A DNA stretch of 35,522 nt from the IMG/VR virus record IMGVR_UViG_3300006853_000010, positions 1 to 35,522 of that record; one strand, written 5' to 3'. The translations under genes were made by a program, and so were the position numbers. The stretch is from a virus. A model generated the notes under the pieces. That model saw nothing but the letters and a program-made list of their open reading frames with translations, was not told the DNA's origin and made no database searches. The stretch's first letter is position 1. Each line of letters opens with the position of its first letter. Positions 2,810-33,701 of this stretch are shown here, in pieces.

Positions 2810-3643
2810 ATGTACGGCGGATATGATAATGCCCCCAACATCGGTTTTACGGGGTCAAATATGGCGGGCTTGCCGACTACACTCGATCAGGTCAACCCCG
2901 GTTACTACAATCAAATCGCGGCGTTCATCGCCAGCAAAGGACCGAATGCCCGCCTTGCGTCGTTCTCAGGTCTTGTGTTGTACGACACGCTGAGAATTGA
3001 CGCGGGCGTACTCCCATCAAGAGACTTCACTTTCTTTACGAACCCTGTCAACGCAACCCAGGGCTTGTTTGTCGCTGGCACTCAGTACACGAAGCAGGAC
3101 ATCGACGTTCACCAATGGGTCACAACGGGCGGTCAGTTGTCCCAAGGGTATGAAGCCTTGATATGGGAAATCGGCGTTCAGTTCCGCATTGTAGGCTCGC
3201 TTGATAACTCGCTGCAAACAGCGGGCAACTTCATCAACCTTGCTCTCGATCCGGGAACACACACAACGGCCGTTGCTGCAGATGGTGTTCTGATGGGGAA
3301 CACGATGCGGGCGTTTCAAGAGAGCTTGTTTTTCAGTTTCTTTATCAATCAGACGAATTTCGAGTTGGGGCCCGGGTGGAGATTCCCGGCCGGCTGTTAT
3401 GGTTCGTCGGGCTTCGCTACAGCGTACTCGGGCGCGACCGCTCCGGCATTTGGGGTCGAGGACGGCTACGCAAACAACGGCTTCGGATGGGCCTATCAAA
3501 TGCCTGTGATGCGGCATCTGCCGCCGCTCACCAAATTCGGAATCAAGATGAGCGTGCAAAACCCGTTTACGACGGCCTTGGTTGGACCTGTGCGAATAGT
3601 CGTCACACTCGGCGGGATCGGCGTCCAGCCTGTGACCGGCTGA
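2810..3643 (+). CDS. Candidate major capsid protein
   Basis: This 277-residue protein is rich in beta-prone, Gly/Asn/Phe-rich segments, has no signal peptide or transmembrane helix, and has the best ribosome site of the late block (AGGAGAAGGAG, 7 bases before ATG). Motifs include YDTLRIDAGVLPSRDFTFF (about residues 57-75), TGGQLSQGYEALIWEIGVQF (about 104-123) and a C-terminal strand pair FGIKMSVQN ... VRIVVTLGGIGVQP. The length is close to that of jelly-roll capsid proteins of tailless phages such as PM2 P2 (269 residues), and a strong terminator follows directly, as is common for a dominant structural gene. No homologue is named from sequence alone; capsid identity rests on context, composition and length. 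The C-terminal strand pattern also occurs in the products of 4202, 4675 and 5753. Confidence 0.6.
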   Translation: MYGGYDNAPNIGFTGSNMAGLPTTLDQVNPGYYNQIAAFIASKGPNARLASFSGLVLYDTLRIDAGVLPSRDFTFFTNPVNATQGLFVAGTQYTKQDIDVHQWVTTGGQLSQGYEALIWEIGVQFRIVGSLDNSLQTAGNFINLALDPGTHTTAVAADGVLMGNTMRAFQESLFFSFFINQTNFELGPGWRFPAGCYGSSGFATAYSGATAPAFGVEDGYANNGFGWAYQMPVMRHLPPLTKFGIKMSVQNPFTTALVGPVRIVVTLGGIGVQPVTG

Positions 3644-10929: not shown

Positions 10930-11502
10930 TCACTTTCGCCACAGCCCTTCGAACCGCTTCGAAGCGGTTCGCGTGTATCGGACTGTGTGATGAATGTTCT
11001 GATGACCCAAATAGTCTTGGATCAATCGAGTATCGAATCCCTTGTTGGCCAGGTAGTAGCCGCACGAATGCCGGAGCATGTGCGGCCGGACCTTGAACGC
11101 CAACCCTGCGCGCTTTCCGATCTGTTCGAACAAATAGTTGACGGCCTGACGCGTCATCGAGCCCCGCTCGCCCACGAAGAGATGCGGCAAATGAGCGAAC
11201 TTCGACTCTCCCCGAATCCGGAGCCAGGCGCGGAGAGCGCGCAGTTCGTCTCCTTCGAGGGGATGTTCGGTCGAGAGACTTCCCTTCAGGCGGCGAACTT
11301 GCATCCGGGCCGTTCGAAGGTCAACTTCTTCGAGGCGCACATCGATCAGCTCTGACACCCTGAAGCCGTGACGATAAGCCAGGAGCGCGAGCAAGAAATC
11401 CCGAGGGCCGTGAGTTCCCTTCCGGGCGGCTATCAAAAATTGCTCGATCTCGGCGTCGGTCAGAAAGTCTTTTACGCGACGATCCACAGTCAGTGTTTTC
11501 AT
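10930..11502 (-). CDS. FimB/FimE-like tyrosine recombinase
   Basis: This 190-residue protein (start at 11502; in-frame ATG 11532 is an alternative) consists of a tyrosine-recombinase catalytic domain with almost no N-terminal core-binding domain. That is the architecture of the fimbrial switch recombinases FimB/FimE. The resemblance extends to sequence: LLAYRHGFRVSELIDV with Arg48, STEHPLEGDE, HMLRHSCGYYLA (H141, R144), DTRLIQDYLGHQNIHHTVRY with H167 and the nucleophile Tyr176, and a terminal RFEGLWRK. The catalytic set is complete. FimB-type enzymes invert short promoter-bearing DNA or serve small mobile elements; here it could invert a segment or resolve replicon multimers. A separate full-length integrase is encoded at 28542, so this is probably not the main integrase. 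The ribosome site is weak. Confidence 0.9.
   Translation of the reverse strand: MKTLTVDRRVKDFLTDAEIEQFLIAARKGTHGPRDFLLALLAYRHGFRVSELIDVRLEEVDLRTARMQVRRLKGSLSTEHPLEGDELRALRAWLRIRGESKFAHLPHLFVGERGSMTRQAVNYLFEQIGKRAGLAFKVRPHMLRHSCGYYLANKGFDTRLIQDYLGHQNIHHTVRYTRTASKRFEGLWRK
10950..10971. repeat. 22-bp perfect palindrome in the recombinase 3' end
   Basis: The arms are CGAACCGCTTC and GAAGCGGTTCG with no spacer, a perfect 22-bp palindrome coding for the residues just after the catalytic tyrosine. Two abutting 11-bp arms equal the arm length of Xer/dif-type binding sites, although dif has a 6-bp centre. It may be a site for the enzyme itself or simply a cruciform or RNA hairpin. Confidence 0.85.
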
Positions 11503-11536
11503 ATTCTTTACTTTACAGAAGTTGGAGACCATAGAG

Positions 11537-11574
11537 AAGCCCGCGAAAATATTGGTGATTTTCGCGGGCTTTTT
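11537..11574. terminator. Strong 14-bp hairpin before the recombinase gene
   Basis: AAGCCCGCGAAAAT (11537-11550) and ATTTTCGCGGGCTT (11558-11571) form a perfect 14-bp stem with a 7-base loop. On the + strand it ends in five T; on the - strand the tail is weaker (CTTCTCT). Leftward transcription from the early block meets it just ahead of the recombinase start, so it likely lowers recombinase expression. Confidence 0.8.
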
Positions 11575-11582
11575 GCCTGATT

Positions 11583-11608
11583 CCATTCAAAAGGAACTTT
11601 TTGTTAAG
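11583..11608 (-). promoter_or_regulatory. 26-bp dyad repeat, copy 1
   Basis: On the + strand CCATTCAAAA-N6-TTTTGTTAAG. The right arm matches the consensus fully, the left arm partly. It overlaps the TAA stop of the gene at 11604. See the finding on the six-copy family. Confidence 0.6.
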
Positions 11609-14028: not shown

Positions 14029-14054
14029 CTTTACAAAAGGTTTTTATTGTTAAG
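14029..14054 (-). promoter_or_regulatory. 26-bp dyad repeat, copy 3
   Basis: CTTTACAAAA-N6-TATTGTTAAG on the + strand. It covers the last codons and stop of the RNA ligase gene, so the repeat has been kept inside coding sequence. Confidence 0.75.
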
Positions 14055-14597
14055 AGCCCGCTTCAGGCCGAAGTCTTTCTTTTTGATCTTCACCATGCGG
14101 CCGTCTGGATGATGCCAAACGATGCCCTCAATATCTCGATCAGCAAGAAAAGCCTTGATGCCCTCGAAATCGCGCGGAGCGTCAAGACTCTCTTCGCCGT
14201 GCAACATCAAATAGTGTTTGTCGTAGCCCTCCGGATTCCCCTGAACCTTCGGGCCGCACAGTTCATATGTGCCATTGAAGCCCTGACGTATGTTTTCCCA
14301 TCCTTCACGAAACCATCTATCCTCCGGGCCGTCTCCGACCGGCAACCATCCGGGCCAATGGCCGGTGACCGGATCAGGATCTTGCGCCGGCTCGAATCCG
14401 ACAGGCGGCCTCTTTCCTTTCTTCGCGTCATATCGCTTGTAGAGCTTCCCGTCTCTCACAAGGCAACACGTTCCGTCATATTTGCGTGTAGCAACGCCCT
14501 CGCCGGCGATGACCCACTCAGCGCCAGGGACAATTTCATCTCTCACAAGCTTGTCTGTTTCGTAGTTGCGTTTGAATAGTGAAATAATCTTTTCCAT
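14031..14597 (-). CDS. RNA ligase (nucleotidyltransferase superfamily)
   Basis: Start at ATG 14597 with GAGGGGAG 10 bases upstream (the TTG at 14606 is not needed); 188 residues. The covalent nucleotidyl transferase motifs are present in order: motif I RKYDGT with Lys39 as AMP acceptor, motif IIIa TYELCG (110-114), motif IV IEGIVWHH (156-162), and motif V MVKIKKKDFG (168-177). It is short and lacks a C-terminal domain, like the small RNA ligases of the DUF5565/Rnl1-like type in phages. Likely role: sealing cleaved tRNA or other RNA after host anticodon-nuclease attack. No partner polynucleotide kinase is seen in the window. It could act on nicked DNA, but the motif style favours RNA. Confidence 0.85.
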   Translation of the reverse strand: MEKIISLFKRNYETDKLVRDEIVPGAEWVIAGEGVATRKYDGTCCLVRDGKLYKRYDAKKGKRPPVGFEPAQDPDPVTGHWPGWLPVGDGPEDRWFREGWENIRQGFNGTYELCGPKVQGNPEGYDKHYLMLHGEESLDAPRDFEGIKAFLADRDIEGIVWHHPDGRMVKIKKKDFGLKRALNNKNLL

Positions 14598-14625
14598 CTT
14601 CTTCAATCTCCCCTCTGTTGTTTGT

Positions 14626-15574: not shown

Positions 15575-15861
15575 CTCTCAATTCCCTTCCCTTCTGTTTG
15601 ATCTGTCTGGCCGGCGAGGGCGCGGATTGTAAAAACAACTGATTCCCTTAGCTCTCCAAGATATTGCCTGTCCCACTTTTCTATTTCTTCTCTTGCAACC
15701 TTCGCACAGTCTTCGATCTGATCACGGAGGGCTTGAACAATTGACTGAATCAATGCCTCGGTCTGTTCGGGACTGATGGTGATTGCCCACCATTGAGAAA
15801 AGCCCGGTGGAAGCGCTGATTGCTCGATTGCTTGTTTCGCTCTCTCTTCAACGGTCTTCAT
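15571..15861 (-). CDS. Small helical protein, unknown
   Basis: This 96-residue protein is strongly helical with a proline-containing turn near residue 20 (LPPGFSQWW) and coiled-coil-like segments (IEDCAKVAREEIEKWDRQYL). The last residues, KGIER, encode the ribosome site and stop/start of the following gene (AAGGGAATTGAGAGATGA). Function unknown. Confidence 0.8.
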   Translation of the reverse strand: MKTVEERAKQAIEQSALPPGFSQWWAITISPEQTEALIQSIVQALRDQIEDCAKVAREEIEKWDRQYLGELRESVVFTIRALAGQTDQTEGKGIER

Positions 15862-16082
15862 CCTCTGGCCTCCCTCGCGCTTATGATCTGTGTCGCGCGA
15901 ATTTCAATCTGATTAAACGTCTCCAGGTTGGACTCGATAAACGACGGAGTCATAGACGCCATCATGCTGATTCCCCATCCAAAATGCTCAATGCTCGAAG
16001 CTGTACGAATCGTATCCTGAGACATAATCCGAATCGCTCGGGCCACAAGATCAATCCATCTCAGTCTCTCAGTTTTGGTCAT
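15858..16082 (-). CDS. Small helical protein, unknown
   Basis: This 74-residue protein starts at ATG 16082, overlapping the upstream stop (ATGA). It is helical, moderately hydrophobic, and contains several Met and Ile residues (GWGISMMASMTPSFIES). Not a clear membrane protein. No family recognised. Confidence 0.75.
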   Translation of the reverse strand: MTKTERLRWIDLVARAIRIMSQDTIRTASSIEHFGWGISMMASMTPSFIESNLETFNQIEIRATQIISAREARG

Positions 16083-16300
16083 CGCTTCACCTCCATATCT
16101 TGAGATTCGATAAATCGTTTTCGATCTCTCTCACGTCTACGGCTCAAGATGAAGCGTAATCGCTTCATCTGGGCCAACAATTTCTCCAAGTCTTCGATAG
16201 CCCGATCAACTTCTTCAACGGGCGCATCCATCGCCACGCGCACAGGCAAAGGAATGTCGGGATCGGGCTTGTATTTTCTTGGCAGGCGTCTATGGGTCAT
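16079..16300 (-). CDS. Small basic coiled-coil protein
   Basis: Start ATG 16300, overlapping the upstream stop by ATGA; the longer frame to 16381 lies inside the neighbouring gene. The 73 residues have a Pro-rich N-terminus (RRLPRKYKPDPDIPLPVRV) and a helical, heptad-like C-terminal half rich in Leu, Glu and Arg (VEEVDRAIEDLEKLLAQMKR). Unknown function; possibly nucleic-acid binding given its charge. Confidence 0.75.
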   Translation of the reverse strand: MTHRRLPRKYKPDPDIPLPVRVAMDAPVEEVDRAIEDLEKLLAQMKRLRFILSRRRERDRKRFIESQDMEVKR

Positions 16301-17185: not shown

Positions 17186-17419
17186 TCATACGTCTTGCTC
17201 CCATTTTGATTTCTGCCAAAAGTCGCAGAGAATCCTTTCCATCTCCGAAGACACACGAGTACGATTTGGTAGTTGATGCCAGACCGTACACCATCCCACG
17301 AATCGCCCCACAGCTATGCGCGCTCCGAACAATCGAGACAGCCAAGAGGGTTCATGCAAGGTTGTAATCTCGGCTTTGCGCGGGCCTGTAAATTGACAGT
17401 GAAGCAATTTGATTTTCAT
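17186..17419 (-). CDS. Unknown early protein
   Basis: This 77-residue protein has CAGGAGGCGAAAGCGGC before its ATG at 17419. It appears globular with an aromatic-rich centre (WLSRLFGARIAVGRFVGW) and DFWQKSKWEQDV at the end. No motif recognised. Coupled to the upstream gene by ATGA overlap. Confidence 0.75.
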   Translation of the reverse strand: MKIKLLHCQFTGPRKAEITTLHEPSWLSRLFGARIAVGRFVGWCTVWHQLPNRTRVSSEMERILCDFWQKSKWEQDV

Positions 17420-17706: not shown

Positions 17707-17770
17707 GATTTAAACTCCTTTCAATTTCCTGTTCGATCTCAATGCGCTTTCTGTTAAGAGTCTCCGGCCA

Positions 17771-18136
17771 TCACCAAAGATCCTTCGTATATCGAAAACC
17801 TTGAAAGCCGCGCTTCTTCATCGGCTCAGGTGGACGGCTTACCGGGCCTGTGCAAACAGCCCAGACCTTCGGCTGTCTGATAGTCTCATCCCAGCATTCC
17901 CGCGCATCGCCAGGCTCATAGCCGGCGATGTTGAGCCGAACTTGGATTTCGCCTTCGACCAGCAAATACATGTGCAAGACTTCAACCTTCGGGATAGCTG
18001 ACAGCGCGATGTAGATCGTCAGATCGTGGCCGCGCTCCAGCGCATTGATCGAAGCCTCATATCTCTTCTTCCCAACATGCTCAGGTCCGAGACTTGGGAG
18101 TGTGCGAATGATTCCGGTCGGTCGTTCTTTCACCAC
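17771..18136 (-). CDS. Unknown early protein
   Basis: This 121-residue protein starts with GTG at 18136 behind GGGAGGAGTTGCC. Beta-rich middle: HDLTIYIALSAIPKVEVLHM and LLVEGEIQVRLNIAGYEPGD; then ECWDETIRQPKVWAVCTGPV and a basic C-terminus. It overlaps the upstream gene by 7 bases. No family recognised. Confidence 0.75.
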   Translation of the reverse strand: MVKERPTGIIRTLPSLGPEHVGKKRYEASINALERGHDLTIYIALSAIPKVEVLHMYLLVEGEIQVRLNIAGYEPGDARECWDETIRQPKVWAVCTGPVSRPPEPMKKRGFQGFRYTKDLW

Positions 18137-18480
18137 GGCAACTCCTCCCTCTCTTCGTCTTCTTCGTCTTCTTCGCCAGCATCAATCGCGTTTGTTTCTC
18201 CGGCCGTGATCTGTTTCGGCAGTTCCCATCTATGAACCGGCTCCGGTTGGTTACTGATGGCAACGGCTCGCGCGATCTCTTCGGTTGTGGGCGTTAGACG
18301 ATAGAGGGATGAGCCGTTGAAATACTGTGTCACGAAGCCATCGCCATTCGGGATGTCAATGCGCCCTTGCTTCGATCCAAACAATTCGACCTCGGTGACA
18401 AGGCCGGCCATTCTGACGTGGCCCATCAATTCGACCACGCACCATTCTTGAAATTTTGGTATCTGTGTTGTGTTTTCCAT
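18130..18480 (-). CDS. Phage early protein with acidic C-terminal tail
   Basis: This 116-residue protein reads KFQEWCVVELMGHVRMAGLV, then VELFGSKQGRIDIP and VTQYFNGSSLYRLTPTTEEI in the first 70 residues. This beta-rich layout (a GRIDIP strand followed by a Q-x-F/Y-GxxxxYRLTP loop) is common in phage proteins of unknown function. The last 25 residues are highly acidic (DAGEEDEEDEEREELPW), encoded by a GAAGA-rich run. It sits downstream of dyad copy 4, with GAGAGGAAC as ribosome site. Confidence 0.8.
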   Translation of the reverse strand: MENTTQIPKFQEWCVVELMGHVRMAGLVTEVELFGSKQGRIDIPNGDGFVTQYFNGSSLYRLTPTTEEIARAVAISNQPEPVHRWELPKQITAGETNAIDAGEEDEEDEEREELPW

Positions 18481-18488
18481 ATGTTCCT

Positions 18489-18514
18489 CTCTGCAAAAGA
18501 TGCGATTTGTTGAG
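18489..18514 (-). promoter_or_regulatory. 26-bp dyad repeat, copy 4
   Basis: CTCTGCAAAA-N6-ATTTGTTGAG on the + strand, in the 45-bp gap between two early genes. Arms CTC and GAG change together relative to the consensus CTT/AAG, a compensatory change that supports the pairing of the arms. Confidence 0.75.
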
Positions 18515-18525
18515 AATTCTGCCCA

Positions 18526-19053
18526 TTATCGAATCCTGAGATGATTGCCGCGCTCGCCCAGGCCAGCGCCATGCGTCTCTTCATCGTTCCGAATCGCTTC
18601 CCGAATCGCTTCCCGATCCAACTCGATCACGCGACGCTGAAAGGCTTCAGGCGCAGCGGCTGGCTCGTGCTCCCATTCTTTAGGCAATATCAGGGGGAGG
18701 GCGCCGCCGTTCTGGGCGACAGTCAGCTTGAAATGCTCGGTTTGCATCTTCGATAGGCCGCACATTTCGAGGAAGAGCTTCAGACGGGATTTCAGCCGCT
18801 TTGCCTCATTGATGTCAGCGCCGGCCGAAGCCATGAGCGCTTTCGCCGCTTCCTCACGAATACTCGACCGTCCTTCGAATTCGCGGATCAGCCAGCAAAT
18901 GCTGTTTACTTTCTTGTCGAGTGAGATGTTTGTTTCGGAGAGCCACTGATCAATCGCGGCCTCGGCTTCGTCGTTCGGCAGTTCGCCGCCGCATTCTGTC
19001 AATAGATCGTGAAGGGCTAAGATTTCATCTACTATCTGAAACAGTGTCGACAT
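18526..19053 (-). CDS. Siphovirus Gp157-like protein
   Basis: This 175-residue protein has the pattern of the Sipho_Gp157 family: a helical N-terminus, then DKKVNSICWLIREFEGRSS, a long coiled-coil-like stretch (EEAAKALMASAGADINEAKR), LKSRLKLFLEMCGLSKMQT and a short beta segment EHFKLTVAQNGG followed by prolines. The family occurs in phage early regions next to recombination and replication genes; the original member was reported to affect phage resistance in streptococci, while the biochemical role remains unclear. Its start follows AAGGAGAAAATAA, which overlaps dyad copy 5. Confidence 0.85.
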   Translation of the reverse strand: MSTLFQIVDEILALHDLLTECGGELPNDEAEAAIDQWLSETNISLDKKVNSICWLIREFEGRSSIREEAAKALMASAGADINEAKRLKSRLKLFLEMCGLSKMQTEHFKLTVAQNGGALPLILPKEWEHEPAAAPEAFQRRVIELDREAIREAIRNDEETHGAGLGERGNHLRIR

Positions 19054-19062
19054 TTATTTTCT

Positions 19063-19088
19063 CCTTACAAAAGAAACGTTCTGTAATG
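19063..19088 (-). promoter_or_regulatory. 26-bp dyad repeat, copy 5
   Basis: CCTTACAAAA-N6-TTCTGTAATG on the + strand, between the PAPS-reductase-like gene stop and the Gp157-like start. The left arm shares bases with the AAGGAG ribosome site, so pairing could block translation. Confidence 0.75.
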
Positions 19089-19090
19089 AA

Positions 19091-19969
19091 TTATTCGCAA
19101 GCCGCGTAATGTGCCAGGCACAAGCGCGGCTCCATCTCCGCTAGTTGCGATTGATACAGGCCGTCAACATCGGGCGCGCTTCCCTTGGCTCTATATCCAG
19201 ATTTCGCCCAGGCAACCACATCATCAATCGTGCAAACCTTGACCGGCTTCCCCTCCGCCGAGATGTAGGTTGCGCTTCTGTACCGCATCGGCACTTTGTT
19301 TGAGGCGAAGAAACTCTGCGGCTGCCCGCTCATCTCTTTCAGTTTCGCCTCTAAATTCCTGATCTGGTCAATCCGCTCGGGATGATGTTGAATCAATCCT
19401 CTCAATTCACTTTTCCCCGAGTTGATGCAAGGAAAACAACCGACACGCTTTGCGCCCTGATAATAGAGAGGGTTTAAAGGGATGTTGTATTTAGCATGAA
19501 TGATCAAAACGTCTTCGATCTTCCAATCAATCAACGGTCGCCATTCACGCATGCCGAAATAACTTTCAAGCGGATCTCCCCACTCGGTCAGTTTCGCCCG
19601 CTCAAAACTCTCGCCCCGGCGCACGCCGGAGCAAGGAATAACTTCGCCGTATTCTTCAGACAGGTTTTCAAGGTGTCGCTTGGTCGGAATCAGTTTCAGT
19701 TCCTTGGTGCAGAATCGCCGGTGGTTGTTCGGAAAAATCTTGTGCTTTATGACGGCATTCTCAAAGCCTTCAGTTTCGAGCCATTGAATTGGAAAGACCT
19801 TCGCTGAGAGCATCGCTATGTGGTCGTAAGTTTCTGTCGCTTCGTTCCGCGTATCACAGAACGTCGCTTGCATCTGCTCTCGCGGAATCCCCGACTCATA
19901 GACCATCCACAGCAACAAGGCCGTCGAATCTTTTCCGCCCGATATTCCGATGTGATAGAGCCTGTCCAT
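19091..19969 (-). CDS. PAPS reductase/DndC-like adenine nucleotide hydrolase
   Basis: Start ATG 19969 (upstream frame to 20014 runs through the dyad); 292 residues. The PP-loop SGGKDST (residues 10-16) identifies the adenine nucleotide alpha hydrolase fold. RRFCTKELKLIP and VGCFPCINSGKSEL follow, as in phage and plasmid PAPS-reductase-family proteins related to DndC, which bind ATP and often a metal or iron-sulphur cluster through the cysteines. Here the cysteines are FCTK and CFPC. In phages such proteins have been proposed to modify DNA or to counter host defence, but no DndDE genes accompany this one, so its role is open. Linked to HNH upstream. Confidence 0.87.
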   Translation of the reverse strand: MDRLYHIGISGGKDSTALLLWMVYESGIPREQMQATFCDTRNEATETYDHIAMLSAKVFPIQWLETEGFENAVIKHKIFPNNHRRFCTKELKLIPTKRHLENLSEEYGEVIPCSGVRRGESFERAKLTEWGDPLESYFGMREWRPLIDWKIEDVLIIHAKYNIPLNPLYYQGAKRVGCFPCINSGKSELRGLIQHHPERIDQIRNLEAKLKEMSGQPQSFFASNKVPMRYRSATYISAEGKPVKVCTIDDVVAWAKSGYRAKGSAPDVDGLYQSQLAEMEPRLCLAHYAACE

Positions 19970-19971
19970 CT

Positions 19972-19997
19972 CTTTACCTTTGGATTGTTTCGTTAAG
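19972..19997 (-). promoter_or_regulatory. 26-bp dyad repeat, copy 6
   Basis: CTTTACCTTT-N6-TTTCGTTAAG on the + strand. It overlaps the TAA stop of the HNH gene and ends 3 bases before the PAPS-reductase-like start. Outer six bases of each arm fit the consensus; inner bases differ. Confidence 0.65.
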
Positions 19998-20343
19998 ACT
20001 GAAACGGCAACCACTGTTCGCCACGCGCCAGCCTTGCCGCTATCCGATTCTCGACGCGCCGGCGCATATGATCATCACGGTCAAAATCCAAATGACACTT
20101 CTGACAAAGCGCGGCCAAGTTCTCTTCCCTCACGTCATGCAAATCGTCTTTACTCCCAGGCTTCCCATCGGGCTTATCGATCCCCAAGTGAGCGACAGTC
20201 AAAATCACTTTGCTGCCTGTGATCGGATGAGGCTTGTAGTTTTCGGCTCCGCACCACTCGCAACGATTCTCTGCCCTCTCGAATCGCAAACGGCGGCTGA
20301 TCTCATGCCAGTCAGAAGGATAAAGTTTGTAGTCGATCGGCAT
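19993..20343 (-). CDS. HNH endonuclease
   Basis: This 116-residue protein contains CEWCG (28-32), AHLG with His52, and a C-terminal NLAALCQKCHLDFDRDDH (75-92): the two CxxC zinc pairs and the HNH catalytic residues of a McrA-like nuclease. The GGAG ribosome site is 8 bases upstream. Stand-alone HNH proteins of this size occur in phages near packaging or replication genes; here it is the first gene beyond the candidate origin, so a nicking or recombination role in replication is possible. It may alternatively be a free-standing homing nuclease. Confidence 0.88.
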   Translation of the reverse strand: MPIDYKLYPSDWHEISRRLRFERAENRCEWCGAENYKPHPITGSKVILTVAHLGIDKPDGKPGSKDDLHDVREENLAALCQKCHLDFDRDDHMRRRVENRIAARLARGEQWLPFQS

Positions 20344-20386
20344 TTTCGGGCTCCGTTTATTAGATTCTACCCTCTAATGTAAAAAC

Positions 20387-20737
20387 TTGACCAAATTGGC
20401 CTAAACCCTTTGGCTACAACGCCGTACTACGTTTAAAGGGTTTACCGTACTAATCAAAAACGCCATCTGTAAGTTATTGATTCTTGGTTCGTGGTCAATT
20501 CAGTGGTCAAGTTTTTTGACCCAAAAATCGAAAAATTGACCTGAATTCTCCCCGGTTTGCACACATGGGGGGGGGTATACCGGAAAAAGTTGACCAATCT
20601 GACCTGAGCATCTAAAGCACAGATACGAAAGGAGATATTGTGGTCAATATATAGAAAAAAAGTTGACCAATTTTTATTATTTATTGACCTAAAGGCCCGG
20701 ATTTTCCCGTTTAGGTCAATTAGGTCAATTTGGTCAA
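20387..20737. other. Candidate replication origin: 12 TTGACC/GGTCAA repeats
   Basis: In about 350 bp, TTGACC occurs (either strand) at 20387, 20493, 20505, 20516, 20536, 20590, 20642, 20663, 20684, 20714, 20723 and 20732. Fewer than one is expected by chance. The last three are in tandem at 9-bp spacing (TAGGTCAAT type). Between them lie an AT-rich tract (20669-20684), a run of nine G (20567-20575) and a 10-bp inverted repeat. The region lies between the replicative helicase gene and HNH, in the only large gap of the early block (20344-20822). I find no credible gene in it. Iteron-like arrays next to a helicase typically mark an origin. Confidence 0.75.
20402..20452. repeat. Inverted and direct repeats at the origin edge
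   Basis: TAAACCCTTT (20402-20411) and AAAGGGTTTA (20435-20444) are perfect inverted copies; CCGTACTA is repeated at 20422-20429 and 20445-20452. This may be a regulatory site for HNH transcription or part of the origin. Confidence 0.7.
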
Positions 20738-20822
20738 TGTTTTTCACCCTACCTCTTTCCTGGGAGAAACGAAAAAACACCTTTTTGCCGATTTTAGAAA
20801 CATTTTGGTTACTAAAATCATT

Positions 20823-23114
20823 TCATTTCTCTCCATCGAAGATCGCAGACAAAGGAATAGCGACGGCATCGAGCCTAGTGCGGGGAGTGCGTGTCTTGTT
20901 CCCTCTTCCCTTGTCTTTCGCTGCAATCATCCCTTTTTCATCGAGACGCTTTACAAGGATTGATTCCGAAACTGCGATCCCTTCACCATTCCGATGCCCT
21001 TGTGCGTTCGCAATGCCGTAAGCCGATTTCATTTCGAGATAAAGGATGTTGTTCTCAACCCATCCAACGCATTCCCCATTCGGCCGGCCGTCGCGCCAAC
21101 CGCACAGATGTCCAATCTCCGAAGGCTGGTCGCCATCAATTGTTTGCAAATTGGCGCGGCCGGAAGTCAAAGCGCTCCGAAGTAATTGAATGAAGTGATC
21201 GGCGGGATGCAAGGACGCTTGTTGCGCTTGCTGATCTTGTCCAGCGATGGAGAGTGATTTCCATATCTCTTTCCATAAAGTCTCGCCTTCTTTTTTGCTG
21301 ATGGCTTTGGCGTCTACCGCGGCCCATAGCCACACCTTCCAACTTGCGCCAAGATGCGCGATGGTCGTGGCCTGCCGCGCGTGTCCCTGTGGAGCATTGT
21401 TGAGTTTTTCACGGAGAGTAAGACGCTCTTTGTCGAATTGAGTTTTGGTCTTATCTCGATTGCCTGCGAGATGGCTCAGGAACGTCGCAAGGCTAAAGGC
21501 TAATTCTCCTTTCGCGGCTGATTGCTGCATTTTGGTGAGGGCTTCGCTTGTGATCATTCCCTTATCAATCGATACGATGTGTAGGCGGGCCTGGAGACTC
21601 ATTCCTCTCGGCAAATCCTCGCCACTTGAGATTGCCAACCCGCGCGGTTCTTTCGTTAGCCGTTCCGACATGTCTTGCTGTAATCGCCCTCTGCCTGTGC
21701 GATTTCCTGCAGCTCGGCCAACCCGCTCAGCTTTGGCGTGTAATTCTTCATCGTGTCGCTTTTGGCCGTTTGGGGCGAAGTCGTCAATAACCATGATTGC
21801 GTCTTTCGCCGTGAACAGTTTCACCAAGAGAGTGTTGGCTGTGTCGTCCCAGTTGGCCGGCATGGTGAGACGGTTGAATCCTGGGCCGAAGAAAGATTGA
21901 ATCAACCCGGTAATTTCCGACTTGAAGCATCCACTCTGCCCTACCACATAAACAGAATAATCAATCTCCCCCAACGTGGATGCGAAGACAGCCCCCAACA
22001 ACGGCACGGTCAGGGCCAGCGGAAAAGCCCGGAGAAATTTCAAAGTAAATGTGTAGGCTTCCGGTATGGCGTCGCCTGTCGCGGGATCTGGCAACACGAA
22101 GAATCGCAAGGAGTGAGGCAGCATTACCGCGATGTCAGCGCGATTGCCTTCGGCTGTGATGCCCCCGCCTCCATGTAGATAGCACCATTCATCTCCGATC
22201 TGGCGCCATCCTGTATGAGCGTAGACAACGCGAGACGCGAAGGAGGGCGACAGTTGTTTGATGGCGTATTGCGCATGGTTGCCCATGCCAGGGCAGACGC
22301 CCGCCTTCGCCCCGAGTTGAGATGTAACCCATGACATCGCATCGAACTTTGATGAAGGGATTTCGATTCGTCGAGTATCGCCTCTCACTGTAACCTCCAC
22401 TTCAAAAATACGTTGTTCTTCCGAAGATCCATCATCGGCAATAACCTCAGAAACGATCTTCGCCATGAAATCAGTCACTTGTTTTGTTTCAGGCCCATAG
22501 CGACCTGTGTTGCGAAACCAAATCCCAGATGACGTGTTGTAGTAAGACTGTTTGATCGTTTGGCTTCGCGGGATTGAATCAAGGAATTCTTCGATCTCTG
22601 CCGGCGACGCCCCATTGCCCGCCATACGCAAAAGCGTTTCAGCTTTCTTCGCGGCCTCGCGTTTGAAATTGATATCCGTAAGCTGTTTGATCAATCCGGG
22701 CATGGTTGCAGGGCCGGCTTCTCTACCGCTTACTAAGCTTGCGATGTAGGCCGGCCCTCCGACCTTATCGAGTTGATGGCGTCCGTTTAAATGGTCTTGT
22801 AGAGTCATGGGATTGATTTCCCATCCTCGGGCCTGCATGTCGACCATCGCCTCAAAAATTATTTTGTTGGATTGAATCTGAAGTAGGTTTTTATTTAGGC
22901 CAGCTTCGACCGACTTCTGTAACAGGCTAACTCCGTCCATGAGGATCAGTCCGAGCGCCTCACATTCCGCGCCCTCGGCAAGTGGTAATTCGACCTCCCC
23001 GGATGGATGTTTGCGCGCTGGATCTTTGGCGCGCTGTGATTTGGGTGTTGTCTTTGTCGGGGGCGTCGTTATTTTTTTCGACGGCGTTTCTGATGATGAT
23101 GATGTATTGCCCAT
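20823..23114 (-). CDS. Replicative helicase: DnaB-N-like domain plus DUF927-like ATPase
   Basis: This 763-residue protein has a low-complexity basic N-terminus (1-45), then a DnaB N-terminal-like helical domain (about 46-180: ECEALGLILMDG, then GGPAYIASLVSG, as in DnaB primase-binding domains). It is followed by a large domain with Walker A VGQSGCFKSE (391-400) and Walker B AIMVIDDFAP (439-448), the layout of DUF927/superfamily-3-like ATPases of phages and integrative elements. The C-terminus (about 650-763) contains LCGWRDG and a winged-helix-like end. It likely loads at, and unwinds, the adjacent repeat cluster. No primase, polymerase or SSB gene is recognised in the window, so host enzymes must be used. 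The fusion of DnaB-N to this ATPase type is uncommon. Confidence 0.85.
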   Translation of the reverse strand: MGNTSSSSETPSKKITTPPTKTTPKSQRAKDPARKHPSGEVELPLAEGAECEALGLILMDGVSLLQKSVEAGLNKNLLQIQSNKIIFEAMVDMQARGWEINPMTLQDHLNGRHQLDKVGGPAYIASLVSGREAGPATMPGLIKQLTDINFKREAAKKAETLLRMAGNGASPAEIEEFLDSIPRSQTIKQSYYNTSSGIWFRNTGRYGPETKQVTDFMAKIVSEVIADDGSSEEQRIFEVEVTVRGDTRRIEIPSSKFDAMSWVTSQLGAKAGVCPGMGNHAQYAIKQLSPSFASRVVYAHTGWRQIGDEWCYLHGGGGITAEGNRADIAVMLPHSLRFFVLPDPATGDAIPEAYTFTLKFLRAFPLALTVPLLGAVFASTLGEIDYSVYVVGQSGCFKSEITGLIQSFFGPGFNRLTMPANWDDTANTLLVKLFTAKDAIMVIDDFAPNGQKRHDEELHAKAERVGRAAGNRTGRGRLQQDMSERLTKEPRGLAISSGEDLPRGMSLQARLHIVSIDKGMITSEALTKMQQSAAKGELAFSLATFLSHLAGNRDKTKTQFDKERLTLREKLNNAPQGHARQATTIAHLGASWKVWLWAAVDAKAISKKEGETLWKEIWKSLSIAGQDQQAQQASLHPADHFIQLLRSALTSGRANLQTIDGDQPSEIGHLCGWRDGRPNGECVGWVENNILYLEMKSAYGIANAQGHRNGEGIAVSESILVKRLDEKGMIAAKDKGRGNKTRTPRTRLDAVAIPLSAIFDGEK

Positions 23115-23189
23115 GTGTGCTGCTTTCTTTTTATTTGGGTGAGGTCATTGTTAAAGCTCTGTCGGGGATTAGTTCGGGGCAAAAGGTCA
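23115..23189 (-). promoter_or_regulatory. Leader of the helicase gene with a partial dyad
   Basis: CATTGTTAAAG at 23146-23156 resembles the right arm of the 26-bp dyad, and a CTTTTTATTT element lies 26 bases away. The ribosome site of the helicase (AAAGAAAGCAG) is weak, so translation may be kept low. Confidence 0.35.
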
Positions 23190-23561
23190 TCAGGCTCGCG
23201 CCTCCTGTCCCCCTGAAGATTCAAGCCAGGCGGCAATCTCTGCGATTGTCTGCCGCTCAACTTCGTGAAGGTATGACACGTCGGCGGCAAGTTCATGATC
23301 GATGCCCAACATCTCCGCAAGGATCATCGTTCCGAGTCCCCACAGGTATTTGAGCGGGTCGTTCAGGCGTTGGTCATATCGCTTCATGAAATCATCGTGG
23401 GCTGTTTTGAAGTCGCCGCCATAGAGTTCAATGACGCCTGCGCCGAGCGCGCAAACTAAACATTGATTATCCTTGGCGCTAATGTGATAGCTAGAATCTT
23501 CGACTACTCCAGGCCGTTTACTGCCGGCTTGCATCACTCGTGCTAGTTCTCCTCTGTTCAT
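23190..23561 (-). CDS. Unknown early protein
   Basis: This 123-residue protein has GAAAGGAGATTTC before its ATG at 23561. The N-terminal part reads RGELARVMQAGSKRP, the middle CLVCALGAGVIELYGG, and the C-terminal half is helical (YLWGLGTMILAEMLGID, ERQTIAEIAAWLE). The tone is that of phage proteins that hold a conserved NQCLVCALGAG-like core; I do not know the function. It lies next to the helicase and could be a loader or accessory factor (inference only). Confidence 0.75.
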   Translation of the reverse strand: MNRGELARVMQAGSKRPGVVEDSSYHISAKDNQCLVCALGAGVIELYGGDFKTAHDDFMKRYDQRLNDPLKYLWGLGTMILAEMLGIDHELAADVSYLHEVERQTIAEIAAWLESSGGQEARA

Positions 23562-24616: not shown

Positions 24617-25061
24617 GGGTTTCTCCTTTATTGGGCGGCTCAAGAGCTTCAATTGCCGCGCTCGATGGATGGCCGGGCCATCGTTCATCTTGGCCAATAA
24701 ATACGATGTGAAAATATGGCGTTGAGCCAAGCGGGTCGCGCGAAGTGATTACCGGGTCTTCTGTTTCATCCCAATTATCAGTGTTGGCGTAAAACTCTAA
24801 CGCCTTGCCATAGCGGGCCGCTCTCTCTTCGGCTTCCCTACGCTCTTTGACTGCAATTCGCACTAGACCGTCATGCTTTGCGCATTCAATCCCATCGCGT
24901 TCTGTGATCAGTTCGCGCAGGCGTTCGATCTCGGCTTCGGCCTTCTCTGCGCGCTGTCTGGCTTCAGTTATTTTGGCGTTGGCGTTGTCCCATCCATCTA
25001 TCGTGTCTGATACTTTATCGAGAATTTTTCTTTGGCGTCTTCTCTTCAATTGATCACTCAT
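24606..25061 (-). CDS. Coiled-coil protein with C-terminal globular domain
   Basis: This 151-residue protein starts at 25061 behind GGGGGGAAGTACAA. The N-terminus is basic (LKRRRQRKILDKV), followed by a long coiled coil (EARQRAEKAEAEIERLRELI, VKERREAEERAARYGKALEF) and a short strand-rich end (GSTPYFHIVFIGQDERWPGH). No family recognised. It overlaps the 34-residue membrane protein gene by 11 bases. Confidence 0.75.
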   Translation of the reverse strand: MSDQLKRRRQRKILDKVSDTIDGWDNANAKITEARQRAEKAEAEIERLRELITERDGIECAKHDGLVRIAVKERREAEERAARYGKALEFYANTDNWDETEDPVITSRDPLGSTPYFHIVFIGQDERWPGHPSSAAIEALEPPNKGETHEQ

Positions 25062-25366
25062 TTGTACTTCCCCCCATTGATGATCGTCGTAAGTGTGTTT
25101 TGAATCGCCCTCCGTCTCCGGCGTCTCTCGCTCAATAAATCAATCACGGCCATCTCTTCGCGGGTCGCTCTCTCTTCGGCCCTGCGAACTTGCGCGGCCA
25201 TCCAGCGTTGAACGGCGTTGAAGGAGAAGACCACGCGACCACCCAACTTGATGCGCGGAATTGAATCCGTCCCGCATCTCCCCTTCTTCACGGTATGAAG
25301 ATCAAGGCCGATCAGTTCAGCGACCTCTTTGAAGCTCAGAAAGCGGTCGGGTGTTTTAGAGGGCAT
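25058..25366 (-). CDS. MerR/excisionase-type helix-turn-helix protein
   Basis: Start ATG 25366 behind AAAAAGGAGCAATAGCC; 102 residues. Residues 8-55 (FLSFKEVAELIGLDLHTVKK, RIKLGGRVVFSFNAVQRWM) form the HTH_17/excisionase-type fold used by Xis and MerR-like DNA-binding proteins. The C-terminal half is basic with RRRRRR. It could be an excisionase for the integrase at 28542 or an early transcription regulator; location in the early operon fits either. Confidence 0.82.
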   Translation of the reverse strand: MPSKTPDRFLSFKEVAELIGLDLHTVKKGRCGTDSIPRIKLGGRVVFSFNAVQRWMAAQVRRAEERATREEMAVIDLLSERRRRRRAIQNTLTTIINGGKYK

Positions 25367-25949
25367 GGCTATTGCTCCTTTTTGCGACTTCACAAAGCCA
25401 TTCGGCCAATGCTTGCGGAGTATGCTCGCGTTCTGATTTTGTTATTTCGGGTCGCTTGCCGTCCGCTTTTCGTTTTGAACTCTTCACAACGAAAAGCGGA
25501 TCGCCCATGCAATAAGGGATTGATGGCAAATCGGCCGGCTCAATTCCGACGATATAAAGCCAGGTGGCCTTATCCGCTTTGTGTCCAAACCACCATTGCG
25601 AAACCCAAAGCGTATAGCCGTTGAAATCGTCTCTCTCGTTTTGGTATGGCAATCGTGCGGCTTCCCAAAGTGTCGAACCAGCTGGATGTTCCAACACTCC
25701 ACCCCACTTGCGAACTTGCTCAACGGCCCACAACGCAAGCTCTCGCTCTCCATCTCTCGGCTTGGCTAAGTGTCGAAGCCTGCCCCAGGCTCTACACGGT
25801 GGATGAGCAATCACCGGACAGCCTCCGGGCCAATTGCGAGCGTCACGATTGATGTCCCATACGTCGCAATCGGGTAGCGATTTATAGATGGAATCTGTTC
25901 TTGCGAAGAGTACGGCAATCATATGCAGACACGTCTGTACGTGCGCCAT
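25356..25949 (-). CDS. Putative methyltransferase-like protein (AHPPCRAW type)
   Basis: ATG 25949 is the upstream start; ATG 25922 (MIAVLFARTDSIYK) fits the family better, but neither has a good ribosome site. Residues include CPVIAHPPCRAWGRLRH, GERELALWAVEQVRKWGG and VLEHPAGSTLW. These blocks characterise a phage/bacterial family usually annotated as hypothetical; the PPC motif before a helix and the EHP motif resemble cytosine-C5 methyltransferases (PC and ENV motifs), so a Rossmann-fold methylase or nucleotide-binding enzyme is possible. This is an inference. It overlaps the HTH gene by 11 bases. Confidence 0.65.
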   Translation of the reverse strand: MAHVQTCLHMIAVLFARTDSIYKSLPDCDVWDINRDARNWPGGCPVIAHPPCRAWGRLRHLAKPRDGERELALWAVEQVRKWGGVLEHPAGSTLWEAARLPYQNERDDFNGYTLWVSQWWFGHKADKATWLYIVGIEPADLPSIPYCMGDPLFVVKSSKRKADGKRPEITKSEREHTPQALAEWLCEVAKRSNSHAL

Positions 25950-25992
25950 CAAGTCGCTAGTGGGGGAGCGGCTTATAGGCGCGGATTATTGG

Positions 25993-26322: not shown

Positions 26323-26410
26323 TGGTATTCAACGGTGAGAATCCCAGAAACTAATGGCCGGGCGTCGTGGGAACAACGCGGGTGTTTTTAACTAAAAAGG
26401 AGTGTGCCTA

Positions 26411-26689
26411 ATGATTGTCCTGTCATTTGTCCCTAAAGGAGCAATCCCCACAATGGATAAAGAACAAGAACAGCGAAACGAGGAACCGAAGCCTCGATCA
26501 ATCATTCTCCCAATGTACGTTTGGGACATGGTAGAGAAAGACGCTAAGCGTTGCCGTCGATCTATAAACAAGCAGATCGAAGCTATTCTTGTGGTGTTTT
26601 ATGGCATCGAATCCAGCGTCAATATAGACGAAGATACTTTGATTTCAGAATCAAACACTCGCAACCCGAAACTGAAGAAAACAGCATAA
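26411..26689 (+). CDS. Ribbon-helix-helix regulator (rightward)
   Basis: Two in-frame starts both have good ribosome sites: ATG 26411 (AAGGAG 8 bases before) for 92 residues, and ATG 26453 (AAGGAG 11 bases before) for 78. The core RSIILPMYVWDMVEKDAKR and CRRSINKQIEAILVVFYGIE gives strand-helix-helix of the Arc/MetJ type. The two regulators resemble each other only in fold. If both starts are used, the two forms would differ by a hydrophobic N-terminal extension (IVLSFVPKGAIPT) that might affect dimer or membrane interaction. Likely opposing partner of the leftward regulator. Confidence 0.83.
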   Translation: MIVLSFVPKGAIPTMDKEQEQRNEEPKPRSIILPMYVWDMVEKDAKRCRRSINKQIEAILVVFYGIESSVNIDEDTLISESNTRNPKLKKTA

Positions 26690-28541: not shown

Positions 28542-29660
28542 ATGCAAATCAAAAAAGTCTGGCGCAAAGATCTGGGCGAATGGCGCTACAAAATCGACGT
28601 GACTGTGAATGGTCAAAGGTTCAGGCGGGCGGACTTCGAGAAGAAGTCAGAAGCCGAAGACGCAATATCGGCTTTGCGGTTGAAAGCGAGATCTGACCGC
28701 TACGGCCTGACTCTACCAAAGCCAAAAATCACACTTGCATCTCTAAAGAGTAGTGTGACGAAAGATCGAAAAGACATGCGAATTTTTAAAGAGTTTGTCG
28801 AGCTGGTTGGCCCGGAGACTTTATTGACTGACCTAACGCGGGCCGATTGGAAAAACTATGTTGACTGTCTCAAAGCCCGGAAATGCAAGCCCGGAACGGT
28901 CAACAGGTATATGGCCGAGGTCTCGGCTATTCTGTCTTCAGCGTCAGAGAGATTCCCGGATCTAGGCGAATGGCGATGTCCTAAAATCCCATGGCTGACA
29001 TGGCCTCTCGGTCGCAATAGAGTTTTATCCAAAGAAGAGATTTCAAAAATTCTCTTTGCTCTGAAGGCCGAGAGACAACATCACGAACAATATTTTTCCG
29101 TCAAGAATCGGGCCGAGGTCTTTGATCTGTTTCGGTTGATGCTTCTCACAGGCGCAAGGGAAGGGGAGATTTTAAATCTTAGGCAAGACCAAATTTCATG
29201 GGACTGGCGCACGGTCAAGCTTGTCTCGAAGAAAGGCGGCGGATCTGTTCGCGTTGTCCCGCTGTCTGGCTCGGCTCTGGAGATATTGCGATCTCGAAAT
29301 CAGGGCCAGAGATTCTTTTCGATCAATCGGGACAAGCTTTATAGAACGCTCGAAAGAATCGGCGTCATGTCCGGTGTGGCCTATGGAGACAACATTGACG
29401 GGGGATGGGTGATTTATGATCTCCGCCACGTTGCCGCGACAGTGATGGAGAATGCCGGCGTCCCATATAGCGCCGTCTCTGCGATACTCGGCCATAAACG
29501 AAAAGACCAAACAGCCACGTATGCCCATGCCCAGATGGAGACATTGAGAAGGGCGGTTGAAGTTCTTGAAAACCATTGTCGAGAGATTGACGGGTTTGAT
29601 ATTCCCAGATGCCATGAAATGCCCCTTGATGCCCCTTCGCCGCAGCAAGCATTTGGCTAG
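28542..29660 (+). CDS. int: Phage integrase, full-length tyrosine recombinase
   Basis: This 372-residue protein has an arm-binding-like N-terminus (EWRYKIDVTVNGQRFRRADF, 13-32), a SAM-like core-binding domain (about 70-155) and a catalytic domain (160-330). Catalytic residues are Arg206 in LLTGAREGEI, a lysine near 230, LRH at 294-296 in YDLRHVAATVM, GHK with His318 and the nucleophile Tyr327 in TATYAHA. This is the usual layout of temperate-phage integrases that join attP and attB. ATG 28542 lies directly after a hairpin terminator and has no strong ribosome site, so expression is limited. It differs clearly from the short FimB-like enzyme at 10930. A C-terminal extension after the tyrosine (MPLDAPSPQQAFG) is longer than usual. 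Confidence 0.93.
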   Translation: MQIKKVWRKDLGEWRYKIDVTVNGQRFRRADFEKKSEAEDAISALRLKARSDRYGLTLPKPKITLASLKSSVTKDRKDMRIFKEFVELVGPETLLTDLTRADWKNYVDCLKARKCKPGTVNRYMAEVSAILSSASERFPDLGEWRCPKIPWLTWPLGRNRVLSKEEISKILFALKAERQHHEQYFSVKNRAEVFDLFRLMLLTGAREGEILNLRQDQISWDWRTVKLVSKKGGGSVRVVPLSGSALEILRSRNQGQRFFSINRDKLYRTLERIGVMSGVAYGDNIDGGWVIYDLRHVAATVMENAGVPYSAVSAILGHKRKDQTATYAHAQMETLRRAVEVLENHCREIDGFDIPRCHEMPLDAPSPQQAFG

Positions 29661-29931
29661 AAGTCTTATAATGTCAATGGTTTCAACCATGTTTGGAGAC
29701 CATAAATATCCCCGCCAAATTCTGACCGATAATCCGGTTTAAATCCTGTAAATAGCCAAATAACTAGGTTTATAGTTGGGCCTGAAAGTTTTAGCGTCCA
29801 GATTTTGCCCACAATTGACCGTGGCTGAATCGAAAAGCTCAGGCCATAGGGCAGGGTAGGGCAACGGGAAAAACTCTAAAATCGGCTTGGTTCTGCTTGA
29901 AAGTCGCAGGGTATAGGGAAGGACAGGAGAC
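29661..29931. other. Candidate attP region downstream of the integrase
   Basis: No gene is seen in this 271-bp stretch. CCGGTTTAAATCCTG (29733-29747) resembles the T-arm end of tRNA genes, a common attB core. GCAGGGTA occurs at 29851-29858 and 29906-29913 as direct copies that might be arm-type integrase sites, and GGTTTCAACC is a palindrome at about 29679-29688. The position next to the integrase gene is typical of attP. The core assignment is inference. Confidence 0.5.
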
Positions 29932-29959
29932 AAAAAAGGGCTGAATCTCTTCAGCCCTT
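29932..29959 (-). terminator. Terminator for the leftward block
   Basis: AAGGGCTGAA and TTCAGCCCTT (29936-29945 and 29950-29959) form a 10-bp perfect stem with a 4-base loop; on the - strand it is followed by TTTTTT. It lies 26 bases after the stop of the small membrane protein gene and ends the leftward operon. Confidence 0.9.
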
Positions 29960-29984
29960 ATCAGTAGGATGTCATGCCAAACAA

Positions 29985-30158
29985 TCAGATCGAAGGCTTT
30001 TGCTTTGCGTCGTAAACGGCAATGAGATTCAAGACGGCTTTGACAGTGATCAATACCGTAAACACGTTGATGGCGTTAGAGCCAAGCAAGACCAACCATT
30101 GGCCTATAAGGAGCATCAGCAAGAAACAAGTCTCAGCCGTAAGAGAGGTCTTGATCAT
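29985..30158 (-). CDS. 57-residue hydrophobic protein, possible holin-like or membrane protein
   Basis: ATG 30158 overlaps the upstream stop (ATGA); the frame ends at 29985. It reads MIKTSLTAETCFLLMLLIGQ, then WLVLLGSNAINVFTVLITVK and AVLNLIAVYDAKQKPSI. It holds two hydrophobic stretches separated by a short NAIN turn, so two membrane spans are likely, with a basic end. Size and layout suit a class II holin, but no endolysin is adjacent and this block is not known to be late, so the role is uncertain. It is too short to be seen in ordinary gene lists. Confidence 0.75.
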   Translation of the reverse strand: MIKTSLTAETCFLLMLLIGQWLVLLGSNAINVFTVLITVKAVLNLIAVYDAKQKPSI

Positions 30159-33086: not shown

Positions 33087-33701
33087 ATGGCGGCTTTGGG
33101 CGCGACTTATCCCACGACGGCACGCGATCATCATCTCGCTGTCAATCTGTTCGCGCCCGCCGTCTCCCTTCCTGAGCCTGCGATTATTTACTCCCCGCTG
33201 GCTGAGGGCGCAGGCGGGACTTGGCAAACACTCGCGGCGATGCAAGCTTGCGTGTTGGGCCAAGTCCCGCCTGATTACTCAGGCTATCAGGACGAATTCA
33301 ATATCAGCGCGGCGGATGCAATCTGCGCCAATGCTCCCGGCCAAGAAGCATTGGCGCAGATTGCCGCGCTGTTCAAGTGGGTGACTCAGAACATCACCTA
33401 TGAGCCTCATCCCTTCAATCAACAAATTTGCCAGGACGCTAGACGCACACTCGAACTGAGAAAGGGCGACTGCGTAAGCCTGTCAGTATTGCTCGCAACT
33501 CTGTTGGCCTGTGTGGGCTATCAATCACAGTTCGTCACGCAATTTGTCGATGGCGAAGACGCTTCGCACGTCTACGTCGAAGTGTTTTTACCGAGCGGTG
33601 AAACGCTCGCGCTCGATGCGGTTGCCGATGACAAACCAATGGGATGGAGACAACCCACACTCGATGGTGGTTTTGAAGTTGAATGGCCGATTTTTACTTA
33701 G
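33087..33701 (+). CDS. Transglutaminase-like protein, first late gene
   Basis: This 204-residue protein has the transglutaminase-like triad: Cys129 in RKGDCVSLSVLLATLL, His161 in DASHVYVEVFL and Asp177 in TLALDAVADD. The preceding helix WVTQNITYEPHP is typical of the fold. Such proteins act as peptidases, cross-linkers or, in phages, as proteins of unknown function in the structural cluster. In this operon it could cross-link or process virion proteins. There is no signal peptide. Start ATG 33087 with GAGG upstream. Confidence 0.85.
   Translation: MAALGATYPTTARDHHLAVNLFAPAVSLPEPAIIYSPLAEGAGGTWQTLAAMQACVLGQVPPDYSGYQDEFNISAADAICANAPGQEALAQIAALFKWVTQNITYEPHPFNQQICQDARRTLELRKGDCVSLSVLLATLLACVGYQSQFVTQFVDGEDASHVYVEVFLPSGETLALDAVADDKPMGWRQPTLDGGFEVEWPIFT

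Follow-up and report, generated by a model that had tools for sequence, protein, structure and literature searches.

The helicase-proximal region and its repeat array

The window, i.e. the whole stretch of DNA that was analyzed, is an entire virus record of 35,522 bases. Because the record carries an exact 90-bp direct terminal repeat, the genome was considered circular with a length of 35,432 bp. A gene-free gap of 479 bp (20344-20822) lies between two minus-strand genes, encoding a putative initiator helicase of 763 aa (20823..23114) and, downstream, an HNH endonuclease-like protein (19993..20343; phrog_1571, E-value 1.4e-20). As the original prediction had stated, this gap separates the helicase and HNH genes. 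By the gene list used here it is the largest in the early block; genome-wide it is second to the 494-bp gap at 29661-30154. The latter gap comes after the second of two tyrosine recombinase genes (10930-11586, minus strand, and 28542-29660), both of which are retained in two related phages (G001 and G002, see below), and it may hold attP. A perfect 22-nt palindrome with CTTCGA repeats (10950-10971) at the 3' end of the first of these genes, a tyrosine integrase gene, is perhaps a recombination or terminator element.

The gap next to the helicase gene contains 12 exact TTGACC/GGTCAA hexamers (20387..20737), six per strand, at 20387, 20516, 20536, 20590, 20663 and 20684 on the plus strand and at 20493, 20505, 20642, 20714, 20723 and 20732 on the minus strand. 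Both the predicted count of 12 in 350 bp and the predicted trio with exact 9-bp spacing (20714, 20723 and 20732; in register within 20711..20738, minus strand) were reproduced. We regard these hexamers as iterons and as the proposed binding sites of an initiator. The whole window has 47 copies (17.8 expected, sd 3.6), and the 35 copies spread over the remaining ~35 kb correspond to ~0.35 per 351 bp, compared with 12 in the array. When the genome was compared with 40 dinucleotide shuffles, TTGACC formed its densest 6-mer cluster (12 in 400 bp), while the best shuffle reached 6 and none of the 40 attained the observed density. Copies in the array have an extended form, with an A-rich 5' flank, TTGACC, and then A/T and A (approximately AAAAAnTTGACCWAA), whereas the 35 copies outside have random flanks.

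Beyond what the original prediction described, the complete array forms an imperfect palindrome, bracketed by outer arms of 27 nt that are 85 % complementary (left arm 20378..20404, plus strand; right arm 20720..20746, minus strand). When all 400-bp windows of the genome were ranked for inverted repeats, this region was the best of 701. The AT-richest tract of the genome, a candidate melting site, also lies within the array (20621..20690; the 60-bp windows at 20621 and 20631, with 75 % AT, rank first of 3538). The iterons at 20642, 20663 and 20684 fall within this AT-rich stretch.

A conserved protein encoded across the array had been named in advance as evidence against an origin. The reading frame that crosses the array, a 108-aa ORF (20454-20780, minus strand), had no match in the Pfam and PHROG families searched. 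An Rfam search gave no match, and the sole terminator-like site in the gap was at chance level, so that a terminator reading was rejected. The DnaA box consensus is TTATCCACA; no exact copy was found in the genome, and of boxes with one mismatch there were four (5.2 expected), none in the array.

Domain structure and predicted fold of the helicase

The helicase gene ends at 20823, and 85 bp separate it, in the reading direction, from the end of the nearest iteron at 20737. Thus, the array is positioned immediately 3' of the helicase gene, as an origin of the SaPI/PICI type requires.

Pfam analysis of the 763-aa protein found a DnaB N-terminal domain (PF00772, residues 47-129, E-value 1.1e-10) and no match in the motor region, the RecA-type motor domain of the DnaB C-terminus not being among the matches. 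DUF927 (PF06048) was not matched by the helicase at E<=0.001; the homologue in locus L009 (see below) gave an E-value of 1e-4 and 22.5 bits against a cut-off of 22.6. An AlphaFold2 model built from 29 sequences had a mean pLDDT of 70.9, with residues 1-209 mostly poor. When this model was compared with known structures, the best matches were SaPIBov1 Rep (8tch), with a Z of 23.1 and an rmsd of 4.9 over 443 residues, and SCCmec Cch (5dgk; Z 22.4), followed by MCM helicases with Z of at most 14.9. Foldseek gave E-values of 6e-12 and 1e-12 for Rep and Cch, respectively, and a PDB search with the 29-sequence profile found a single chain, again 8tch (E-value 0.0021), over part of the helicase. The matched ranges run to the C-terminal residue 763, as judged by range ends only. 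By its modelled fold, the motor region is therefore SaPI Rep-like, and the helicase was placed in the SaPIBov1 Rep/Cch family including the C-terminal part (helicase plus C-terminal domain, residues 195-763).

Relatives of the phage and joint exchange of helicase and array

No close DNA relative of the window was found among 50,697 phage records. When a conserved 277-aa protein (2810-3643) was used as the query, three related records, named G001 to G003, were obtained (89, 88 and 63 % identity); all are circular, with 127-bp terminal repeats. Further viral scans with this protein gave no additional record. The protein had no match in genome contigs, and thus no host was assigned. Its AlphaFold2 model had a pLDDT of 31, and calling it capsid-like is a guess. 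The four genomes have structural genes in common, and the window has a large conserved non-replication block with tail-fibre-like and transglycosylase genes. In this it is unlike a PICI proper, a helper-dependent island that lacks a complete set of virion genes. The main structural-block proteins of the lineage had no PHROG match, and the window proteins scanned had no match to the terminase large subunit, portal or major capsid families. A literature search found no paper on this lineage, although one may exist. Two other genes of the window are an RNA ligase gene (14031-14606; phrog_14301, E-value 9e-79) whose product has at most 57 % identity to mycobacteriophage ligases, and a gene (25356-25952) of phrog_12600, which is common to tailed phages, microviruses and an 11-kb Xanthomonas phage.

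The helicases of the four phages are unrelated. The helicase of the window was found in none of the three relatives, which carry, in the same slot, a Toprim-type primase (by PHROG matches) with AAA_25 (G001), a PrimPol-PriCT_1-AAA_25 protein resembling RSF1010 RepA (E-value 5.7e-5; G002) and a fourth type, a protein of 616 aa whose PHROG match is of the primase/polymerase type (G003), in place of DnaB-N with a SaPI-Rep-like part. In BLAST comparisons of the four, the only match under an E-value of 0.1 covered 96 residues (E-value 0.001) in non-corresponding parts of the proteins.

In all four genomes, the top-ranked inverted repeat lies at the 3' end of the phage's own helicase gene, each time with a different sequence. 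In G001 it consists of CCATACTG in 93-nt arms (19485-19677; 698 windows ranked), in G002 of ACCGACA (15972-16110; 738 windows) and in G003 of ATCCTGC, eight times, with perfect 39-nt arms (15590-15761; 784 windows). Inverted sets around an AT-rich region are clear in G003, where the perfect arms are 94 nt apart; the window has inverted sets and its AT-richest 60-mer there, but three of its iterons are inside the AT-rich stretch. The k-mer cluster of G001 is not unique, as it is tied with a coding repeat at 33107, and that of G002 is marginal (1/40 shuffles).

The borders of similarity also separate this region from the rest of the genome. The window and its nearest relative, G001, share 86 % DNA identity as far as 17722, and 93 % again from 23558 onward. 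The segment between these blocks (17723..23557) shows no similarity and contains the helicase gene and the array. Homology between G001 and G002 ends at 17189/13632 and restarts at 19861/16549, so that the exchanged piece is essentially the helicase gene and the palindrome, with one small additional reading frame in G002. Accordingly, it appears that close relatives have swapped the helicase together with what is very probably the start point of DNA replication as one cassette.

Local GC skew

The original prediction had proposed a GC-skew check over 20.3-20.8 kb. In the whole genome, the skew minimum (25871) and maximum (10305) are both away from the array, and this check did not bear the prediction out. 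These extremes fall where the reversed, minus-strand gene block begins and ends. Whole-genome skew was dropped as an origin marker since it tracks gene orientation, and the analysis was restricted to the one-direction gene block.

A minimum in cumulative (CUSUM) skew is the expected sign of a bidirectional origin. In the block of the window, the skew was -0.126 to the left of the array and -0.030 to its right, and the CUSUM minimum (20291) was 271 bp from the array centre (chance of a minimum so near, 0.042). The corresponding minima were 1011 bp off in G001 (18570; chance 0.151), 29 bp off in G002 (16012; chance 0.002) and 384 bp off in G003 (16059; chance 0.039). These are not four independent tests because the genomes, which are not fully independent outside the cassette, share DNA. 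As block limits were set by hand from the gene map, 16 trimmings were tried, and the minimum was at most 1 kb from the array in 12/16 for the window, 16/16 for both G002 and G003, and 0/16 for G001, where it was always 1.01 kb off. AT-skew CUSUM left the array unmarked in the window and G001.

Homologues of the helicase in other phages and plasmids

Plasmids and phages encode distant homologues of the helicase, with 21-31 % identity. In viral contigs, a scan with the single protein gave none, a first alignment two and a second alignment 34. The analysis covered 36 loci, mostly in tailed-phage contigs and with near-duplicates included. Only one of the 36 (L009) has a clear 3' repeat array, and the tailed-phage homologues have no array at the helicase 3' end. 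The top-ranked inverted repeat is 3' of the helicase in two loci (L009 and L026), while 34 of the 36 have no dominant one there. Thus, the helicase family as a whole does not share this arrangement.

L009 is a contig of 49,312 bases without a terminal repeat, from another phage, encoding a homologue with 29 % identity. Directly 3' of this gene, CAGTTAG occurs eight times (rank 1 of 979 contig windows), and the protein has CHC2, Toprim-like and DUF927-like matches. As read from the sequence, this phage has ParA-like and ParB-like frames (L063 18160-19518; L009 6886-7650) beside terminase- and tape-measure-like ones, and it looks like a phage-plasmid.

Plasmid homologues were found in 41 records, and in the 10 that were opened the next gene follows at once or within ~180 bp. 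Actinomycete plasmids, several of them linear, carry distant homologues (L056, L058, L062 and other loci); some of these are annotated as telomere-binding protein, with a terminal-protein or helix-turn-helix gene directly after them. They represent the same motor with a different initiation partner.

Other explanations of the array

A regulatory role is unlikely, though it is the strongest of the alternatives: a phage regulator would bind TTGACC as an operator and control either the downstream HNH, PAPS-reductase-like and Gp157 genes or the helicase operon. The array is upstream of the HNH gene, TTGACC is similar to a -35 box, and three promoter-like sites were found where 0.9 were expected. 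However, an operator does not usually comprise as many as 12 sites spread across 350 bp, together with arms that form a palindrome and an AT-rich core. In addition, the small putative DNA-binding proteins at 25058-25393 (77 and 66 % identity to G001 and G002, respectively) and 26402-26689 (68 and 53 %) are kept in the relatives, in which the array is replaced entirely along with the helicase; this argues against these proteins as its binders.

Slightly less likely is recognition of a hairpin and not of the iterons, as at the stem-loop origin of pRN1 or the single-strand initiation hairpins of RSF1010, both as described in PMC4234260. The regions fold well as single-stranded DNA (z of -5.9 in the window, -10.0 in G001, -7.8 in G002 and -7.0 in L009); G001 has its 93-nt arms, G002 its RepA-like helicase, and the pRN1 stem-loop is likewise 3' of the replicase gene. 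On the other hand, inverted arrays fold well in any case, the outer arms of the window are 315 nt apart, and its repeats are also direct, with 9-bp spacing.

We consider it improbable that the array is a parS-like partition centromere. Iterated centromeres are frequent in low-copy circular elements, and a ParA-like gene, judged from its sequence, lies downstream in the phage of L009; but the window proteins scanned (part of all proteins) had no ParA or ParB match, and the array moves with the helicase and not with a par gene. Finally, TTGACC is over-represented across the genome, but an origin of the array by chance or as a low-complexity artefact was refuted by the shuffles, by flanks conserved inside the array only and by the same placement in the relatives, and can hardly be credited.

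Proposed replication origin

These computational results, from which we infer both binding and replication, best support the reading that the array is an origin bound by the neighbouring helicase. We consider it likely that the circular ~35.4-kb phage replicates in the theta mode from the array, with the 763-aa helicase as the dedicated initiator, in a SaPI/PICI rep-ori arrangement. This reading, which supports the helicase-bound origin of the original prediction, is based on the Rep-like fold, the SaPI/PICI placement, the exchange of helicase and array together, the local skew change and the AT-rich tract.

By analogy with SaPI Rep, the helicase would use its C-terminal domain to bind TTGACC iterons on either side of the array, assemble as two hexamers facing outward and melt the AT-rich tract (20621-20690). 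Two forks would then be started and copied by the host polymerase. In view of the role of this domain in DnaB, the DnaB-type N-terminal domain may serve to recruit the DnaG primase of the host, replacing the fused primase seen in L009.

For the lineage as a whole, we see about even chances that these circular phages have one slot for an initiator helicase and its cognate palindromic origin, in which unrelated whole cassettes are swapped so that initiator and origin remain matched, and that in the window the DnaB-N part of an MCM-like, self-loading initiator would bring the host primase directly to the origin. Natural swaps of this kind indicate which DNA goes with which helicase, and the four genomes offer naturally matched initiators and origins on which binding and specificity could be tested. 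They also suggest a rule for locating origins in phages that have not been studied: at the 3' end of the replication helicase gene, one would look for the strongest inverted repeat, together with a local GC-skew change in a one-direction block.

Comparison with known replicons

The iterons bound by SaPI Rep are found directly downstream of the rep gene (PMC7581432), and PICI origins are immediately 3' of rep, the mapped examples always having two iteron sets around an AT-rich region (PMC6092414). The SaPIBov1 Rep replicon resembles the window in its helicase gene followed by a short-iteron origin with two sets around an AT-rich region, and in the fold of the protein (Z 23.1 over residues 195-763). 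Unlike SaPI/PICI elements, the window is a phage with a circular 35-kb genome and structural genes of its own, its iterons are also inside the AT-rich tract, its helicase has a DnaB N-terminal domain, and its relatives hold unrelated helicases in the same slot. SCCmec Cch/Cch2 shares the helicase fold (Cch, Z 22.4) and downstream repeats, which Cch2 binds downstream of its operon via its C-terminal domain (PMC7581432), but it belongs to a different element with just three iterons and separate primase-polymerase genes.

In pRN1 a stem-loop located 3' of the replicase gene acts as the origin, and between pRN1 and BIP-1 the origin sequence diverges while the symmetry stays; thus, DNA with inverted symmetry at this position can serve as an origin (PMC4234260). 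The window shares this inverted-symmetry element 3' of the replicase gene. However, the pRN1 origin is iteron-free and its replicase is a PrimPol-SF3 protein, whereas the window has 12 iterons and so does not have an origin of that type. Satellite P4 alpha, a phage-encoded initiator helicase whose winged-helix domain binds origin repeats (PMC4234260), is similar to the window helicase in these respects and differs in its fused Toprim primase, both the likeness and the distinction being by description only.

Taken together, the analysis supports an element that would function as a SaPI/PICI rep-ori replicon, and it was not classed as a PICI. The rep-ori type is already known; the new elements are its occurrence in a phage with a circular genome, the fusion to DnaB-N, and the finding that relatives have exchanged initiator and origin as matched pairs.
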